64,000 bases of DNA. Origin: Secundilactobacillus folii. GTDB lineage: Bacteria; Bacillota; Bacilli; Lactobacillales; Lactobacillaceae. Within the stretch, counting starts at the first letter, position 1. Every line of letters starts with the position of its first letter. Shown here piece after piece: positions 26,070 through 62,258 of the stretch. The notes beneath the pieces were generated by a model that was not told where the DNA came from, made no database searches, and was given only the letters and a program-made list of their open reading frames with translations. The position numbers were made by a program, and so were the translations under genes. The stretch lies in the NCBI RefSeq assembly GCF_009720675.1, contig NZ_WNJO01000009.1:1-64000 (forward strand), given 5' to 3'.

Positions 26070-29000
26070 TTAATCGTCATGGCGTTTGCGCCGAGTGCCT
26101 GCCAGACCAAACATTGACAGAACCCCAACTAACAGGCCAAGGACGGTACTGCTGTTGTGCGTAGCCTCGGAAGTCTGCGGTAACTGACTCTGGTTGGCCT
26201 TGTTAGCAGCCGCTCCAAGCGTTGCGGAGTGATTACCAGCTTGGCTGCCCTCAGCAGTTTCACCAGTGGTTTGAGAACCGCTTGCGTTGCCAAATGCACT
26301 TGAGGTGCCAGTAGAATTTGCGCCAGCACCAATTGCTGTGCCGGCACCAAAGCCACTTTGAGTGGTATCGCGCTTCGTCTTCCGACTGGCGTTCTTGGCA
26401 TTGCTTGAACCATTCTCAATCTTAGCAGCATTGCGCCCAGAATGAGAATTGGTCTTAACTTTCGAACCAGAACCTCGGCCAGTCTTAGAAGTCTTGTTCT
26501 GGTTAGTCGCATTATTTGACCCAGAACCATTACCATTTTGGGTAGTACTGTTGCCAGAATTACCACTCGGCTGGTTGCCAGTACTGTTGCCTGAACCATT
26601 AGTTGTACCACCCGTCGAATTATCCGTGGTCGATGGGCCATAGTAATCGCTGGCGGTCACTGATACAGCATCTGGAAGCTGAATAAACGTCTTAGAACCG
26701 TCTGGATCAACTGTTTCCGTCGTTGCAGGACTAGTGGTTGGGTTAGTTGAACCCGTTGCCTTGGCTGGTTGATGAGTCAAAGTAACGCCATTTGGCTCGT
26801 TGTTAGTCACCGTAGTCTTGCCAGTTGTAACTGACTGCCCCTTCGGCACTGTCACAGTCGTTAATGCGCTTTGACCACTTGGCGTCTCAGTCACAGCAAC
26901 GGTTGGGTTATCCGAATCGGCATCGTTTGGCGTAATGTCAACGTGGGTCACATCACCATCAGGCCAAGTCTTATCAATCGTGACGATCTGACCCTTGTCA
27001 TTCGTCCCGGTCTTAGTCGTACCGCCATCAGGATCCGTAGTCGTGCTGCCCGCATAAACGTAGGTGACCTGAACGGGTGTCAAAGTGACATCACCCTTGG
27101 CGTTCGTCAAATCAGCATTAATGTCACTCGCAGCAACTGCATTGACAGACGATGGGGTGACAGCGTAGTCCGTTTCAGGCGTTGGCCTATAAGCGCTCAA
27201 AGCGTCTGGACCAGCAAGTGTCCAATCAGTAAAGCCAAGTAATTGACCGGTTTGGATGTCAAATACAGCGTTTCTGGTATAGGTATTACTCTGGTTGACC
27301 AGCGACTGTGTCTGCCCATTCTGACTACCGCCATCAAATACGGCGCTGATGTCACGAGTGACGGTCTTGGTTAAATCACTATTAGTAATCGTTGTATCTG
27401 AAGAAGGACTGTTTGGATTCTTAGGATCAATCGGACTACCCTTGGTGATTGGCGTTGTTACAGGCGTGATCTGATCTTTCGTGTAATTAATGGTCAAGTC
27501 ATCGTTGCCAGCCTTAAAGTTTTGGACAGCCTCATTGTTCAATTTAACGGCAGGAGCATCTTCTGCTGCTGAGTAACCTAAAACTTTTGGCGATGTTACT
27601 GCTGTGAAACCATCATCGTTCGAATCATTATCGGTATTTGTGCCCAGTGTCCAGTCAGTGTACCTTTCAACTTCACCGGTCTTCGCATCAACGATAGCAT
27701 TCCGGGTATACTTTCCTGTTTGTTGAACCGTTGCTGGTTCGGGATCAGCACCCGTGTAGGTGATTGTCCGCGTCAAAGTCTTGTTCAAATCGCTTTCACT
27801 GACGCCACTTGGATACTTCGGTCCGGTTGGATCATCGGCGTTGATTGGATCACCAGAATTCTTTGGATCATTTGAGGAAACGGTAACCGTATCATCCTTC
27901 GTGTAGGTGACTGTCACATCATCGCTCTTAGCGACGAAATTAGTAATGTCATCCTGCGTTGGTGTCAGTGCTTGGACATCCTTGTCAGCGGTGTAGCCCA
28001 GAATCTTCTTTGAATTTACTGCATCGAGGCTGCCACCAGTCAACGTCCAATCACTGAGGCCTTCCAATTCACCAGTCTTGGCGTCAAAGATTGCACTGCG
28101 CGTATAAGTTTCAGCCTGATTGACAGTCTTAGGTAACTGATCAGCACTCAAACTATTGTCAGCACTGGTATAGGTGATCGTCCGACTCACAGTTCGGTTC
28201 AGATCACTTTCGGTGACTGCGGTCTGGGCTTTAGTCCCAGTCGGATTCTTCGGATCAACTGGACTACCCTGATTAATCGGTGTCGTGACCGTTACTGTGG
28301 CATCCTTCGTGTAGGTGACTGTCACATCATCACTCTTAGCGACGAAATTAGTAATGTCATCTTGCGTTGGTGTCAGTGCTTGGACATCCTTGTCGGCGGT
28401 GTAGCCCAGAACCTTTGGTGAGCTAACTGCATCTAAGTTGCCACCAGTCAACGTCCAATCGCTGAAGCCTTCCAGTTCACCAGTCTTGGCGTCAAAGATT
28501 GCACTGCGGGTATAGGTTGCTGTCTGATTTACAGGCTTAGGTAACTGATCCGCACTCAAACTATTGTCAGCACTGGCATAGGTGATTGCCCGACTCACAG
28601 TTTGGTTCAAATCACTATCTGTGACCGCTTTATTGGCTTTAGCACCATCAGGATTCTTCGGGTCAACTGGACTGCCTTGGTTAATCGGTGTCGTGATTGT
28701 TACCGTGGCATCCTTCGTGTAGGTGACTGTCACATCATCACTTTTAGCGACGAAATTAGTAATGTCATCTTGCGTTGGTGTCAGTGCTTGGACATCCTTG
28801 TTAGCGGTGTAGCCCACAACCTTGGGTGAGCTGACTGCATCTAAGCTGCCACCAGTCAACGTCCAATCACTGAAGCCTTCTAATTCTCCAGTCTTGGTGT
28901 CAAAGGTCGCACTGCGGGTATATGTTTCTGTTTGCGTTACAGACTTTTGTTCAGGCTCAACACCTTTATAGGTGATTGTCCGGCTCAAAGTTCGGTTCAA

Positions 29001-32000
29001 ATCACCATCTGTAACCGTGGTCTGGACTTTAGTCCCAGTTGGGTCCTTCGGATCAACTGGACTACCCTGGTTAATCGGTGTCGTGACCGTTATCGTAGCA
29101 TCCTTCGTGTAGGTGACTGTCACATCATCGCTCTTAGCGACAAAATTAGTAATGTCATCCTGTGTTGGCGTCAGTGCTTCGACATCCGGAGCAGCGGTGT
29201 AGCCCAGAATCTTCTTCGAGCTGACTGCATCGAAACTGCCGTTAGTCAGCTTCCAATCACTGAAGCCTTCCAATTCACCAGTCTTGGCGTCAAAGATTGC
29301 ACTGCGGGTATAGGTTGCTGTCTGATTGACACTCTCTGGTAACTGAGCCGCACTCAAACTATTGTCAGCACTGGTATAGGTGATCGCCCGACTCACAGTT
29401 CGGTTCAAATCACTATCGGTGACCGTTTTATTGGCTTTAGCACCATTAGGGTCCTTTGAATCAACTGGACTGCCTTGGTTAATCGGTGTTGTGACCGTGA
29501 CTGTATCATCCTTTGTGTAGGTGATAGTCACATCTCGATCACCAGTCTTGAAGGCATCAACGTCCTTACTACTCAGAGTAACCGCTGGTGCATCACCACT
29601 AGCTGTGTAGCCAGTTACAGATGGTGATGTTTTCGCTGTGAAACCATCATCGTTCGAATCACTGTCGGTATTTGGAACTAGAGTCCAGTCAGTATAGTTT
29701 TCAAATTCACCAGTTTTGGCATCGAAAATCGCACTGCGAGTATAGGCTCCCGTCTGGGTTACATCTGCTTGTTCAGGCTCAACACCCGTATAGGTGATTG
29801 TCCGACTCAAAGTTCGGTTAAGATCACTATCGGTAACCGCGGTCTGAGCTTTAGTTCCAGTTGGATCCTTCGGGTCAATTGGACTACCAGCAGTAATCGG
29901 TGTCGTGATCGTAACTGTATCATCCTTCGTGTAGGTGATAGTCACATTTTGATCGCCCGTCTTGAAGGCATCAACGTCGTCACTACTCAGAGTTACCGCC
30001 GGTGCATCGCCACTAGCCGTGTAGCCAGTAACAGATGGTGATGTTTTCGCTGTGAAACCATCATCGTTCGAATCACCGTCAGTATTTGGAGCCAGTGTCC
30101 AGTCAGTATAGTTTTCAAATTCACCGGTTTTGGCATCGAAAATCGCACTGCGGGTATAAGTTCCCGTCTGGGTTACCGGTGATTGTTCCGGCTCAACACC
30201 GGTATAGGTGATTGTCCGGCTCAAAGTTCGGTTCAAATCACTATCTGTGATCGTTGTATCAGATTTAGCCCCAGTTGGATTCTTCGAATCCACCGGACTG
30301 CCTGCAGTGATCGGTGTCGTGACCGTTACCGTGGGATCCTTCGTGTAGTAGATTTCCACATTTACGCTGTTTTCCGTGAAGGCATTGACCTCGTCACTAC
30401 TCAGCATATTCGCTGGTGCATCGCCGCTGGCCGTGTAGCCTTTAAGTTTTGGTGATTGTACCGCTGTGAAGCCATCATCGGTCGGATCATCGTCGGTATT
30501 CGGAAGCAGAGTCCAATCAGTATAGTTTTCCAATTCACCAGTCTTGGCATCAAAGATTGCATCGCGGACATAAGTTCCCGATTGTAGTACCGGTGGTTGT
30601 GGAGGCACAGCACCAACATAACCGACCGACCGGCTCAAAGTTCGTTCCATATCAGTAGAGAGCATTGATATGTTAGCTTTAGCACCAGTTGGATTCTTTG
30701 GATCAAGCGGGACACCTTTAGCAGTCGGTGTCGTGACCGTTATCGTGGGATCTTTCGTGTAGGTAACCTTCACGTCATCGCTCTTAGCGACAAAATTAGT
30801 AATCTCATCCTGTGTTGGCGCCAGTGCTTCGACATCCCGGTCAGCGGTGTAGAACGGAATCTTCTTTGAATTGACTGCATCCAAACTGCCGTCAGTCAGC
30901 TTCCAATCACTGAAGCCTTCCAATTCACCAGTCTTGGCATCAAAGATTGCACTGCGGGTATAGATTGCTGTCTGATTGACAGTCTCTGGTAACTGATCAG
31001 CACTTAAGCTATTGTCAGCACTGGTATAGGTGATCGTCCGACTTACAGTTCGGTTCAGATCACTATCTGTGACCGCAGTCTGAGCTTTAGCCCCAGTTGG
31101 ATCCTTCGAATCCACCGGACTGCCAGCAGTGATCGGTGTCGTGACCGTTACCGTATCATCCTTTGTGTAGGTAATAGTCACATCTTGATCGCCCGCCTTA
31201 AAGGCATCAACATCGTCACTACTCAGAGTAACCGCTGGTGCATCGCCACTGGCCGTGTAGCCAAGAATAGATGGTGAGGTTACCGCTGTGAAACCATCAT
31301 CGTTCGAATCATCGTCAGTATTTGGAGCCAGAGTCCAATCAGTATAGCTTTCAACCTCGCCAGTTTTCGCATCAACGGTCGCACTGCGATTGTATGTCGC
31401 TGTCTGGTTAATAACCGCAGGTAACTGAGCCGCGGTTAAACTACTATCAGCACTTTTATAAGTGATTGCCCGCGTCAAAACTTTATTCAAGTCATCAGCA
31501 GTCACACCACTCGGATATTTTGGCCCCGTAGGATCACTTGGATCAATTGGGTCAGTCGAATTTTTCGGATCAGTGGGGGTCACTGTGACCGTGGGATCAG
31601 CCGTATAAGTGACAGCCACGTTGCCATTTGTTGCACTTAACGTAAACGATGGCGTATCAACTGTTGAACTATAATACTGGATCGCATCAGGTGTAATTGT
31701 AATTTGATCACCAATATTTGCTGAAATTGCGGTACCGTACGTGCCTTTTTGAGCAGTAGTGGCACCATTTACCGTATAAGTAAATCCAGCACTGCTCGAC
31801 TCAGGTGCACCCGTTTCTGATACCGTGAACGGCTGAACAGCACTGGCATAAGGAACCTTGACAACGCCGCCGTTTTTCGGAACGACCGGTGTGTCATTGG
31901 TTGTGTCAGTGTCGGTATCATTGAACGTTGGTGTGATGTAGCCAGTAACAGTCGGTAACTGGCTAACGTCAATTGGCGAATCGACAGTCCCTGAAATTGA

Positions 32001-57541: not shown

Positions 57542-58261
57542 CGTGTTAACCTCACTTTATGATTTGTCTTACAAGGTTAACTACGCAAAGCATCGGGGAT
57601 TGGTGTCAGTAAGATGTAAAAAAATCTGTGCTATTTTGGTCGCCACTTCAATTCAACTGAATTTGCCAGTAAATGCTTCCCTAATAAAGGCCACAAAAAA
57701 AGACCCTCTCCTTAACTTAATAAGAGCGAAGGTCAATTTGGGTAAAGCTGCAACGGGCCCTGAAAGCTGTTGCAGCTCGCCAGACCGAAGAATGTGTCAC
57801 TTTTTGTGGTCACGCAATCGGTCGCATTCGATGCCGTTCACCTACCATCGCAGGTTCATCGTATGTATCACAAAGGATATACCCATAATACTTACGTGGT
57901 GTACAACTCAAATGACGATTGTTTTCTCCAATCGTGACGCCCTATGCTTGATGAATATACGGTTGGGGACTTACACATCATCTGAAATATCGTTATGGGG
58001 GAAATATTTCAGATAAAAACAATTGGCCACAACGACGCTATCGTTCTAACCTCCCTTAGTGTAACCCGAAAATTAAATTAACGCTATTAAAGGTTCTCCA
58101 TTTTCCCAATTTTTTTAAATATGAGACTCAAAATGGAAAATATTGGGACACTTTTGGGGGAGTTGATTGTTGAAAGTGGAAAAAAATTGCGGTAATTCTA
58201 CGGTATTTAGCTGTGGCAGTTCTTTCTGCTTTCAATCTTAAGGCTTTTATCTAGCTGAAAC
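57542..58261. other. Gene-poor stretch with one terminator
   Basis: No supported gene. A minus-strand terminator lies at 57697-57733. An open frame at 57543-58016 on the plus strand has unusual composition, no ribosome-binding site, and crosses that terminator, so I leave it out. Eroded coding sequence on the minus strand is possible. Confidence 0.4.
57697..57733 (-). terminator. Rho-independent terminator without an obvious gene
   Basis: On the minus strand GACCTTCGCTC pairs loosely with GGAGAGGGTC and seven T follow. The nearest upstream gene on that strand has its own terminator, so an unseen small RNA or decayed gene between 57740 and 58260 is possible. Confidence 0.6.
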
Positions 58262-58375
58262 GTGCGAAAAAACTCAGATTCCGGCCGTATAGCGCCAAAA
58301 AGGGAGATTTCCCAAGTTCAGGAAATCCCCCCTTTTCGGCGCTATACTCTGGAATCTACCCGAGTTTTTTCGCAC
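58262..58375 (-). terminator. 114-bp nested palindrome with inner terminator
   Basis: The arms nest from outside inwards: GTGCGAAAAAACTC/GAGTTTTTTCGCAC, GATTCC/GGAATC, TATAGCGCC/GGCGCTATA, AAGGGaGATTTCC/GGAAATCcCCCTT. On the minus strand the innermost hairpin is followed by five T and would end the operon 58377-59003. Confidence 0.8.
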
Positions 58376-58376
58376 T

Positions 58377-58481
58377 CTATCGAATTGACCACATACTCAA
58401 AGCTATCATGATCAACTCTGGTTTCTTCAGTTGCAGTGCCGCGTAAAAGATCATTGCGGCGATGATTCGTTGTTGCTTCAT
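58377..58481 (-). CDS. Tiny hydrophobic protein (34 residues) downstream of DUF2922
   Basis: MKQQRIIAAMIFYAALQLKK and on to WSIR. It follows the DUF2922 gene by 58 bases, with a GGGGGCG site before the ATG. It ends 2 bases before the terminator palindrome. Position and ribosome-binding site suggest it is the third gene of the DUF1659-DUF2922 operon. Confidence 0.55.
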   Translation of the reverse strand: MKQQRIIAAMIFYAALQLKKPELIMIALSMWSIR

Positions 58482-58538: not shown

Positions 58539-58769
58539 TTAAGCGACGAAGAGTTCTTGCGTTGACGTGGTTACGTATGCGCCGCTGATCATCTGAGCGT
58601 AAAGGCTAACACCTTTGCGGTTGAAGAGGTTCAGGGTAGCAATCGTAGTCATGGCGTCGGCAATCGTCTCGGTGGTTAAACCGGGAACCGCCTTAGGAAA
58701 GTTGAAGGTGTGAGTCTTGTCATCTGAACCTTTGAAACGTAATTGCAGTACGGTCTTTTCGTTCTTCAT
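58539..58769 (-). CDS. DUF2922 protein
   Basis: A 76-residue soluble protein: LQLRFKGSDDKTHTFNFP at the start, then TTETIADAMTTIATLNLF and a C-terminal GAYVTTSTQELF. This is the pattern of the small DUF2922 family, usually found next to a DUF1659 gene in Gram-positive bacteria, as here. Function unknown. The start has AGGAGA upstream. Confidence 0.8.
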   Translation of the reverse strand: MKNEKTVLQLRFKGSDDKTHTFNFPKAVPGLTTETIADAMTTIATLNLFNRKGVSLYAQMISGAYVTTSTQELFVA

Positions 58770-58796
58770 AGTCTAGTTCTCCTTTAGTCGATTGAA

Positions 58797-59003
58797 TTAA
58801 ACGGTTTGGATCTTGTCGTCAACGGTTGCGATGCTTGCTGATACGAAGACGGTACCAGTCAGTTGTGCAATCACGGCGGCGAATTTGGCAATTTGGTCGT
58901 CGGAAGGCTTTTCGATCAAGTTGCTGTAAGTGAAGCGAACCTTCTTATTGTTAGGGTCGAGCATCATTAAAGTTAAGCTGGTCTTGTTCCAAGTGGTATT
59001 CAT
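58797..59003 (-). CDS. DUF1659-like protein
   Basis: A 68-residue protein: WNKTSLTLMMLDPNNKKVRFTYSNL, then AAVIAQLTGTVFVSASIATVDD. It pairs with the DUF2922 gene 27 bases downstream; the two are a common conserved pair of unknown function. The start at 59003 follows GGAGTGA; an upstream extension of the frame to 59090 has no ribosome-binding site. Confidence 0.75.
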   Translation of the reverse strand: MNTTWNKTSLTLMMLDPNNKKVRFTYSNLIEKPSDDQIAKFAAVIAQLTGTVFVSASIATVDDKIQTV

Positions 59004-59207: not shown

Positions 59208-59474
59208 ATGGCGCAACGGCTAGTATATCCAGCAATTTTCGATCCAACGGTGATGATAAATCACGTTGAGATCACGATTCCAGACATCCCGGGTGTCAAG
59301 GTAATGGGCAATAATGACGCGGATGCGGCGGATAAGGCGGCAAGAATGGCGGGAGAGACTCTAGCAAAGTTAAACGACGAGTTACCGGTGCCAAGTGCCC
59401 CGTGGGAGTTAAAACCAAAGCCAGGTCAGACGGTGAGTTTTATTGTGTTGGATTTGGATGAGTACAAAAAATAG
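59208..59474 (+). CDS. HicB-like antitoxin-type protein
   Basis: An 88-residue protein. YPAIFDPTVMINHVEITIPDIPG is followed by a helix (DADAADKAARMAGETLAKL) and PVPSAPWEL, the pattern of the HicB fold (YPAxF....FPDLPG, EAxxxAxxxL, PxPS). No DNA-binding tail is visible and no HicA toxin is adjacent. AGGAGG lies 9 bases before the ATG. Its stop codon TAG lies inside the first unit of the tandem repeat that follows. Confidence 0.8.
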   Translation: MAQRLVYPAIFDPTVMINHVEITIPDIPGVKVMGNNDADAADKAARMAGETLAKLNDELPVPSAPWELKPKPGQTVSFIVLDLDEYKK

Positions 59475-60148
59475 AGTGTGGAGAAAGGCGGTTAAAGAGT
59501 GGAGTCTAAGGCAATTTGGGCAGAAAGCCAGGTGGGCTTCCTGGGTTTGTGACCGAATTGCCTTAGATGCAACTCTTTGCCTTTCGGAACACGTTTCGGC
59601 TATGTAAAATAGAGTGTGGAGAAAGGCGGTTAGAGAGTGGAGTGTAACGGAGTCTGGGCAGAAAGCCAGGTGGGCTTCCTGGGTTTATGACCAGAATTCG
59701 TTACATGCAGGTCTCTGCCTTTCGGAACACGTTTCGGCTGTGTAAAATAGAGTGTGGAGAAAGGCGGTTAAAGAGTGGAGTCTAAGGCAATTTGGGCAGA
59801 AAGCCTGGGCTTGGGCTTTGTGACCGAATTGACTTAGATGCAACTCTCTGCCTTTCGGAACACGTTTCGGCTATATAAGAGTAGAGTGTGGAGAAAGGCG
59901 GTTTGAGACCGGAGTGTAACGGAGTCTGGGCAGAAAGCCAGGTGGTTTCCCTGGGTTTATGACCAGAATCCGTTACATGCAGGTCTCTGCCTTTCGGAAC
60001 ACGTTTCGGCTATGTAAAATAGAGTGTGGAGAAAGGCGGTTAGAGAGTGGAGTCTAAGGCAATTTGGGCAGAAAGCCTGGGCTTGGGCTTTGTGACCGAA
60101 TTGCCTTAGATGCAACTCTCTGCCTTTCGGAACACGTTTCGGCTATGT
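59468..60148 (+). repeat. Five 137-bp tandem repeats with compensating stem changes
   Basis: Units begin near 59468, 59606, 59744, 59881 and 60016 with (A)ATAGAGTGTGGAGAAAGGCGG and end with CTTTCGGAACACGTTTCGGC. Each can fold into one long hairpin. Outer pair GAAAGGC/GCCTTTC (59483-59489 with 59579-59585 in unit 1). Middle pair AAAGAGT/ACTCTTT in unit 1, AGAGAGT/ACTCTCT in unit 5, GAGACC/GGTCTC in unit 4. Inner pair CTAAGGCAATT/AATTGCCTTAG in units 1, 3 and 5 (one mismatch in 3), TGTAACG/CGTTACA in units 2 and 4. Both arms change together, and the inner type alternates A-B-A-B-A. The strand is uncertain; a plus-strand terminator follows at 60297. Confidence 0.85.
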
Positions 60149-60296: not shown

Positions 60297-60352
60297 CCCT
60301 AGGCCGCTAATCATCGCTCAAATTCGAGTGCTGATTGGCGGCCTAGTTTTGT
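60297..60352 (+). terminator. Rho-independent terminator after the repeat array
   Basis: CTAGGCCGC-ta-ATCA pairs with TGAT-t-GGCGGCCTAG, with an inner CTC/GAG pair, followed by TTTTGTTT. The arms are about 15 bp. Confidence 0.85.
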
Positions 60353-60371
60353 TTAAACCCGTGTAATCCTT

Positions 60372-61204: not shown

Positions 61205-61474
61205 ATGGACGCCCAAAAGAGTAAAATTGAACGCAACGAAAAGGGTGAACTTTATCTAAAGCTGCCTGCGGAACTGCTCAAATCACTGGAATTAGGCGAA
61301 GGTGACGAAGTTGATTTGATTCCGACCGCGCTTGGTGTCGAACTTCGTAAAATGGGTACGGTAACACCGCAGTTCTGGGATCCGTTCTCCGAATCAGTGA
61401 ACGAATATCAGCGCGCTTTGAAAATGATCCAAGCAGCCGATAATGATAAAAATGATGACGTTAAGAGTAAATAA
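61205..61474 (+). CDS. SpoVT/AbrB-type domain protein
   Basis: An 89-residue protein. Residues 5-50 have the swapped-hairpin pattern of AbrB/MazE-like DNA-binding proteins: KIERNEKGELYLKLPAELLKSLELGEGDEVDLIPTALGVELRK. The C-terminal 40 residues are charged. It may be an antitoxin or a small regulator; no toxin gene follows, the next feature being tRNA-His. AAGGGG lies 7 bases before the ATG. Confidence 0.75.
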   Translation: MDAQKSKIERNEKGELYLKLPAELLKSLELGEGDEVDLIPTALGVELRKMGTVTPQFWDPFSESVNEYQRALKMIQAADNDKNDDVKSK

Positions 61475-61884: not shown

Positions 61885-61914
61885 TTGGCCTAAATCAGAT
61901 GCTAGTGCTATAAT
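61885..61914 (+). promoter_or_regulatory. Promoter of the candidate antisense RNA
   Basis: TTGGCC (61885-61890), 18 bases, TATAAT (61909-61914). It points at the RNA that overlaps the holin-like toxin gene. Confidence 0.6.
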
Positions 61915-61920
61915 AATAAA

Positions 61921-62030
61921 AGAAAAGAGGACGTGCGCGAACACGTCCCCATGCAGAACCGTTTAAGACGGTGGCGCTAACTTTACAAAATAACCGTCAG
62001 CTCTCCAAAGCTCAGACGATTATTTTTTTT
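61921..62030 (+). ncRNA. Candidate antisense antitoxin RNA of a type I system
   Basis: It would start about 7 bases after the -10 box and fold into GGACGTG/CACGTCC, ACCGT/ACGGT and a terminator hairpin (AATAACCGTC-AGCT/AGCT-GACG-ATTATT) followed by eight T at 62023-62030. Its 3' end is complementary to the end of the toxin gene (62020-62127) and to the toxin's 3' untranslated part. This is the layout of txpA/ratA-like pairs. Predicted, not proven. Confidence 0.6.
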
Positions 62031-62127
62031 GCCGAAAATTGATTATCAGCTCAACAACTAACCCCAGCAATGCGATAACGAACGTACCGAATGCCAACAT
62101 TAATTGTATTGCGTCCGAAATGGACAC
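62020..62127 (-). CDS. Holin-like type I toxin (Hol_Tox family)
   Basis: A 35-residue peptide, (M)SISDAIQLMLAFGTFVIAL and on to a membrane helix and FRQKK: the standard wording of putative holin-like toxins (SxxEALxLMIxFGxFIxxLL). GTG start at 62127 with AAAGGAG 7 bases upstream. Such peptides insert in the membrane and are silenced by an overlapping antisense RNA, for which a good candidate lies on the other strand. Too short for usual gene finders. Confidence 0.8.
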   Translation of the reverse strand: MSISDAIQLMLAFGTFVIALLGLVVELIINFRQKK

Positions 62128-62258
62128 AAGGCTTCTCCTTTCCTCAGAATAATAGGCACTACGGAAACCTCACCATAGTTACCACCTCCAAGAAACAAAG
62201 TCGCCACCGTTTTAACTTTTCTACAGCTACTATTAATACCATAAAGCAAAACATAGAG

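Follow-up and report, generated by a model that had tools for sequence, protein, structure and literature searches.

The five tandem, hairpin-forming units that follow a small HicB-like gene in Secundilactobacillus folii raise the question of whether their fold is maintained by selection, whether it is maintained as RNA, and what such an RNA would do. The initial annotation of the window (the whole stretch of DNA analysed here, 64,000 nucleotides of contig NZ_WNJO01000009.1) had described a single array and had proposed, from stems whose two arms change together between units, a structured RNA of no known family. The features of the region are collected in Table 1. The tandem array itself is real: Tandem Repeats Finder delimits it at 59468-60148 with a period of 138 and 5.0 copies, and a further period of 272 with 94% matches, together with a repeat search in which the last two 272-nt copies are 95% alike, confirms the A-B-A-B-A order and the duplicated two-unit block described at the outset. 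Unit 1 does hold the TAG stop codon of the HicB-like gene, whose assignment comes from PHROG 497 (E 3e-8), its product being without a Pfam or NCBIfam match. As for the strong terminator announced behind the array, a hairpin followed by a T-rich run is present, but it is not listed by the terminator scan, whose sites are no more numerous than in shuffles. The solitary sixth unit of the window, overlooked in the initial annotation, is preceded by a DUF1659 and DUF2922 gene pair (58539-59003, minus strand). Elsewhere in the window, overlapping tandem arrays with periods of ~390-414 bp at 27886-31388 perhaps mark a repetitive surface-protein gene, and a small gene at 61205-61474 (plus strand), with no obvious partner, has a weak match to TIGR02609 (addiction-module antidote; 25 bits vs a cut-off of 55.9).

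Table 1. Features of the array and its surroundings in the window
Feature	Position	Strand	Evidence
HicB-like gene	59208..59474	+	ORF; its TAG stop coincides with the initial TAG of unit 1
Unit 1 (A-type stem and B-type apical loop)	59470..59605	+	model R1, 132.3 bits; alignment
Unit 2 (B type)	59608..59743	+	R1, 119.6 bits
Unit 3 (A type)	59746..59876	+	R1, 134.6 bits
Unit 4 (B type)	59880..60015	+	R1, 124.8 bits
Unit 5 (A type)	60018..60148	+	R1, 141.8 bits
Sixth unit, solitary, ~158 nt behind a same-strand DUF2922 gene (Pfam)	58249..58381	-	R1, 85.7 bits
Possible terminator behind the array: hairpin with 24-nt arms, then T-rich run	~60299..60354	+	absent from terminator scan

Each unit of the array folds on the plus strand as one long hairpin (z -5.6 to -8.1, none of 200 shuffles being as good). 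The minus strand of two of the units folds as well (z -8.2 and -8.4), so that folding energy is silent on the strand. RNAalifold, the check that had been suggested for the five units, gives 44 pairs, of which seven show a two-sided, pair-keeping change and three contain broken cells. Copies 95-98% identical to the B-type inner hairpin (units 2 and 4) stand at two other loci, four at one (L029) and one at the other (L030), with differing outer stems, and unit 1 combines a stem of the A type with an apical loop of the B type. This recurrence indicates that whole hairpins are exchanged as blocks, and block exchange together with tandem duplication explains the A/B pattern. Because block exchange can mimic compensatory change, compensation inside one array, on which the initial annotation had relied, is weak evidence for selection, and the argument has to be carried by other copies.

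Such copies are abundant, as the array is one site of a dispersed family. With unit 5 as query, 36 matches are found in the own genome (both hairpin strands counted), and 15 of 60 genomes, counting this one, contain matches. An exact 20-base pattern occurs in Secundilactobacillus collinoides (two contigs), S. paracollinoides, S. similis and Lactobacillus sp. HBUAS51381. From 65 full-length units found, 60 were aligned (window unit 3, two units of L029 and one each of L038 and L043 being left out), and this alignment was the basis of a covariance model, R1. In the own genome, R1 gives 122 matches at E 0.01, mirror-strand matches included, and merging 125 matches from 38 sources (the window and 37 further stretches) leaves at least 78 non-overlapping units in 44 arrays. 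Within the Lactobacillaceae, matches at 1e-4 occur in 168 of 301 genomes, which represent 25 of 40 genera, the own genome included. Across the Lactobacillales, 32 of 198 genomes match at 1e-5; they come from 20 of 55 genera, and 23 of them lie outside the Lactobacillaceae. Beyond the 37 loci inspected, these order-level matches may be chance hairpins. The 37 loci, drawn from the best in other genera and families, mostly retain, by eye, an AGAGTG-like start, a CG(G/T)TTAG-like bulge and a GGA(A/G)C(A/C)CGTTT-like tail; in 17 of them, the end of an open frame of 80 codons or more falls between -4 and +5 of the start (between -60 and +10 in 22).

Mobile replicons carry some members of the family as well. 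A query with one unit (g12) matches 50 plasmid records, 40 from Lacticaseibacillus and 10 from Lactiplantibacillus, and one Aerococcus tenax plasmid record is matched by units of two other families, while four further unit queries gave no match. With blastn, neither the plasmid nor the phage collection yields a match to the array of the window itself, so that a phage or plasmid origin is rejected for it, and the phage collection is likewise without a match to a Lacticaseibacillus unit. Two side observations concern single genomes. In the own genome, the units at L084, L090 and L043 form a subfamily with the start AAGGTGCG and the tail CCCGATTC, some of them joined head to tail with approximately TA between the end and AGGTG. 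In another genome, G012, units lie within ~320 bases of the start of contigs C21, C24, C29, C34, C35, C41, C55, C69 and C80, and such repeats therefore seem to break short-read assemblies.

The units (~130 nt) share a precise architecture. They begin with (N)TAGAG or (N)AAGG; a closing helix of the GUGU/ACAC type leads to a 3x3 internal loop with G.A and A.G mismatches, and inward of it follow a helix, a conserved GGUU-type bulge, a second helix and a second 3x3 G.A loop. A long helix that varies freely, capped by a small loop, forms the apex, and the 3' tail ACGUUUCGGC is conserved. Among the 60 aligned units, 95.0% of the pair cells are paired, against 71.8% in shuffled and at most 48.6% in slid controls. 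Two-sided changes occur in 35 of the 40 pairs, which none of 500 shuffles reaches, and the covariation score is 0.677 vs 0.239; relatedness of the units may inflate the shuffle test, whereas it is retained in the slid control. A 150-row alignment agrees (96.8% paired), although it is fitted to the model and holds 150 of 189 matches, mirror-strand rows included. Pairs are thus kept through compensatory change beyond the controls, as in a conserved structured RNA. In the loops, G.A stands at positions 11/139 in all 60 units and at 34/118 in 58 of 60, the outer cells of the two G.A loops form standard pairs in only 7 and 1 of 120 cases, respectively, and loop 3 reads GGA/GCA in 35 units and GGC/ATA in 10, both sides switching together. 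The pair cells of the 60 units, one pair having been added by hand, comprise 2165 Watson-Crick pairs, 167 G-U, 28 A-C and 95 other mismatches. On the complementary strand each G-U would become an A-C, and the asymmetry hence speaks for the strand that was modelled.

As regards their position, about half of the arrays begin at stop codons. In the own genome, no more than 4 nt separate the array start from the stop codon of a gene on the same strand in 22 of 44 cases, and in three genomes an open frame of at least 60 codons ends near the start of 74 of 143 arrays; one exact offset accounts for 42 of these 74, the stop codon being the TAG or TAA of TAGAG/TAAGG. A start at a stop codon is likewise found in 25 of 49 arrays of genome G006 and 25 of 50 of G012, compared with 149 of 3655 random positions (4%). 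TAG is the stop codon in 11 of 22 genes of the own genome that carry a unit and in 46 of 172 that do not (Fisher p 0.04). The Pfam families of the neighbouring genes are diverse (solute-binding protein, aldo/keto reductase, CMAS, permease, PepC-like, SufB, YchF, PNP, PntB, AsnA, ThrE, Usp, MTHFR, ABC ATPases and others), and no common function is seen among them by Pfam. An RNA special to the HicB-like gene, for instance an antitoxin RNA, is rejected, as the element also stands behind unrelated genes.

The possibility that the unit is itself an intrinsic terminator can also be discarded, since its hairpin is followed by ACGUUUCGGC and A-rich sequence, with no direct U-tract. Separate terminator-like sites are found within 250 nt behind 27 of 68 stop-adjacent arrays, behind 14 of 65 others, which is near background, and behind 94 of 560 random positions; for the 41 arrays with such a site, its median distance behind the last unit is 111 nt. 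Some arrays are oriented against their surroundings: by a home-made gene caller, 12 of 44 arrays in the own genome have an upstream neighbour on the opposite strand, and four of these oppose both neighbours. In two Lacticaseibacillus plasmids, units in operon gaps score on the antisense strand, one in a PTS IIB/IIC gap (L266) with 70.8 bits, and one that fills the lacT/lacE gap of a Lacticaseibacillus rhamnosus plasmid (L267, 1997-2129) with 40.3 bits, its strand being less sure because mirror-strand matches also reach 40.3 bits. Arrays that oppose one or both neighbours would fit free-standing small RNAs with their own promoters, acting in trans. Such RNAs are nonetheless improbable: promoter-like sites around the array of the window are at chance level (4 vs 4.3 in shuffles), and no separate promoter could fit between gene and unit in the half of the arrays that begin at a stop codon.

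The junctions of the units bring in another reading, namely that of a MITE- or REP-like mobile element, whose hairpin would be recognised by a transposase, possibly as one-strand ssDNA, and which would target TA, often in stop codons, its structure serving mobility and not the host. TA is the commonest dinucleotide before GAGYG/AGGTG (63, vs 35 CA and 17 AA) and behind the ..GGC end (56, vs 25 AC and 21 AA), and this bias at both ends agrees with such an element, as do the tens of dispersed copies per genome and the near-identical inner hairpins at three loci. A one-strand DNA hairpin, too, would tolerate G.T better than A.C. REPs, according to the accessible portion of PMC3733652, are palindromes of 20-40 bp, and the GTAG-tagged termini often supply the TAG stop codon of the flanking ORF. 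Both kinds of repeat are dispersed hairpins beside genes, often with TAG at the flanking stop; unlike REPs with their GTAG/CGTC tag, however, the units here have ~130 nt, compensatory stems, G.A loops and a conserved tail. The own genome shows no match to the Y1 transposase family (PF01797), which is matched in 7 of 15 genomes of the genus, and REP/RAYT mobilisation is for this reason unsupported in the own genome.

The behaviour of orthologous copies bears on this reading. At the stop codon of ychF, a unit is present in 11 of 15 genomes by script and in 13 of 15 once L108 and L110, whose first unit was masked by a mirrored hit, are read. The corresponding figures are 8 of 14 for the hicB-like gene (9 with L120; in L123 the unit stands at offset -17), 8 of 13 for asnA and 13 of 16 loci for sufB (L155 and L156 being one place). 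At the stop codons of the remaining loci of these four genes no unit was found, and their orthologues without a unit are too diverged for a comparison of filled and empty sites. G006 and G012, which belong to two species, are the closest pair seen, with ychF 95.4% identical. Of the 49 arrays of G006, 40 have a flank match in the G012 loci, and for 39 of these a G012 array is found no farther than 120 nt away; with L192 and L202 dropped from the 39 for short flank matches that overlap a unit, 37 of 38 arrays with reliable flanks share their place with a G012 array, the exception, L201, being 127 nt away. The G012 side of this comparison consists of 40 array-bearing stretches out of roughly 60 sites, which hides empty sites, and the nine unmatched G006 arrays are either absent from G012 or outside the sample. 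Persistence of this kind counts against the mobile element, as does the fact that copies still pair after insertion, whereas an idle insert should decay; together with the lack of a PF01797 match in the own genome, it makes a structure that serves mobility unlikely.

The manner in which the persisting copies change carries the argument for selection. In 30 orthologous unit pairs of G006 and G012, picked by hand from single-unit arrays, 977 cells are unchanged, 131 show two-sided changes that keep the pair, 58 one-sided changes that keep it, 26 are broken and 4 are unpaired in both, with 0 to 12 two-sided changes per unit pair. The uncompensated arm changes in relatives that the initial annotation had named as counter-evidence are therefore few, only 26 of 219 changed cells being broken and the rest mostly compensated. 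Unpaired positions differ at 216 of 1511, paired ones at ~14%; that is, stems change about as fast as the remainder and yet stay paired. One-sided changes lead to G-U in 58 cases and to A-C in 8, and the ratio is similar in the 16 stop-adjacent pairs (31 to 5) and in the 14 others (27 to 3). Since one-sided changes yield G-U far oftener than A-C, the constraint is strand-specific, as for an RNA. It is just as strong in arrays that lie elsewhere than at stop codons, so that such a codon is favoured as a location but is not required for the constraint.

An excess of two-sided over one-sided changes (131 vs 84) would also arise by mutational palindrome correction, in which one arm is rewritten from the other by a template switch during replication, and both arms change together with no selection on RNA. 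Such correction is a matter of template switching on long near-perfect stems, and the units are the right substrate. A blind process should, however, produce G-U and A-C equally, which the counts contradict, and correction acting alone should erase the G.A loops, which stay unpaired within their long stems in nearly all of the 60 units. As an explanation in its own right it is thus quite unlikely, although it may still raise the rate of change. The orthologous pairs speak for selection on structure, strand-specific and acting at each site, and against mutation as the sole cause. The proposal of a structured RNA under selection hence stands on the 60 diverse units, the 30 orthologous pairs and the asymmetry between G-U and A-C, and not on the within-array argument with which it had been introduced.

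The absence of a known RNA family, also proposed at the outset, holds up. Rfam 15 gives three matches at or above the gathering score in the window, none of them over the units, no match in 10 loci of the own and other genera and, at a loose E-value limit, two matches in 12 distant loci, neither at a unit. Below the threshold, only microRNA hairpins appear at the units, the best being mir-607 with 36.2 bits vs 94; as no family reaches its gathering score there, a known Rfam family is rejected. In a separate part of the window, Rfam matches to RatA (61911-61992, plus strand) and rli28 (62052-62248, minus strand) lie on opposite strands, adjoined by a short hydrophobic minus-strand reading frame seen by eye, and the locus looks like a txpA/RatA-like type I toxin-antitoxin pair. 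Integron attC sites are structured and located behind stop codons, but this likeness was dropped, because units also adjoin core genes of the chromosome, ychF among them, at which the unit is kept across the genus.

Several described repeats resemble the family in size and setting, and the comparisons with them extend to the accessible portions of the papers cited. NEMIS/Correia, ERIC, RUP and EFAR are likewise hairpin repeats of 100-200 bp near genes; EFAR is an enterococcal MITE (PMC3733652), RNase III cleavage has been proposed for NEMIS RNA, and RUP copies are highly similar and perhaps recent (PMC2229807). Unlike RUP, the units described here persist at orthologous places and change with their pairing kept, the comparison with EFAR, ERIC and NEMIS being one of descriptions. 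BOX elements of Streptococcus pneumoniae are dispersed structured repeats with a variable number of modules, some of them transcribed (PMC3049150); they are distinguished, again by description, in that A, B and C modules form one element, whereas the present units are whole hairpins in tandem. The L17 downstream element (RF01708) is a structured RNA of the Lactobacillales in the putative 3' UTR of a gene (PMC2864571), but it is tied to one gene, is smaller (a 78-position model) and is not matched by the units; one distant locus carries it away from the unit. NEMIS and the L17 downstream element may be taken as precedents in kind, by analogy, and not as relatives. Stem-loop families of 40 genomes have been compiled in PMC2267715 and PMC1590033, the latter noting stable stem-loops near stop codons, with Lactobacillus johnsonii the sole Lactobacillus mention in the portions accessible. 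No description of the family was recognised in the literature searched, whose coverage leaves out most subscription journals, and the family is apparently undescribed.

The reading that best accommodates these results, held with about even confidence, is that of an ancient element, dispersed and preserved as an RNA module within untranslated mRNA parts, with putative transcription and function. Its spread would lie far back, the 5' TA(G) often falling on a stop codon, with local multiplication by tandem duplication and block exchange. Its copies are retained in place and would be transcribed within an untranslated region of the mRNA, mostly at the start of the 3' UTR, with selection acting on the fold and not on the sequence. 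The G.A loops and the stem would be recognised by a protein or by a double-strand-specific nuclease such as RNase III, and this recognition would set how the neighbouring mRNA is processed or how stable it is. When a ribosome stands on the stop codon, it would mask the beginning of the hairpin. An extended form of the same reading, which must be regarded as doubtful, takes the units as Lactobacillales-wide cis-acting modules, tens per genome and anchored at stop codons, whose G.A loops would be read by a common putative RNA-binding protein or nuclease and whose base would be opened by terminating ribosomes, so that they would form a genome-wide post-transcriptional network.

Dispersed hairpin repeats are usually regarded as mobile debris; here, dozens of copies per genome preserve an exact fold at constant positions while their sequences keep changing. 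Provided that these copies are transcribed and that a single factor recognises them, food and gut bacteria would possess an extensive level of mRNA control missing from present annotations, and compensatory evolution could be followed as a natural experiment replicated many times in each genome. The family itself is ready for modelling and annotation at once.
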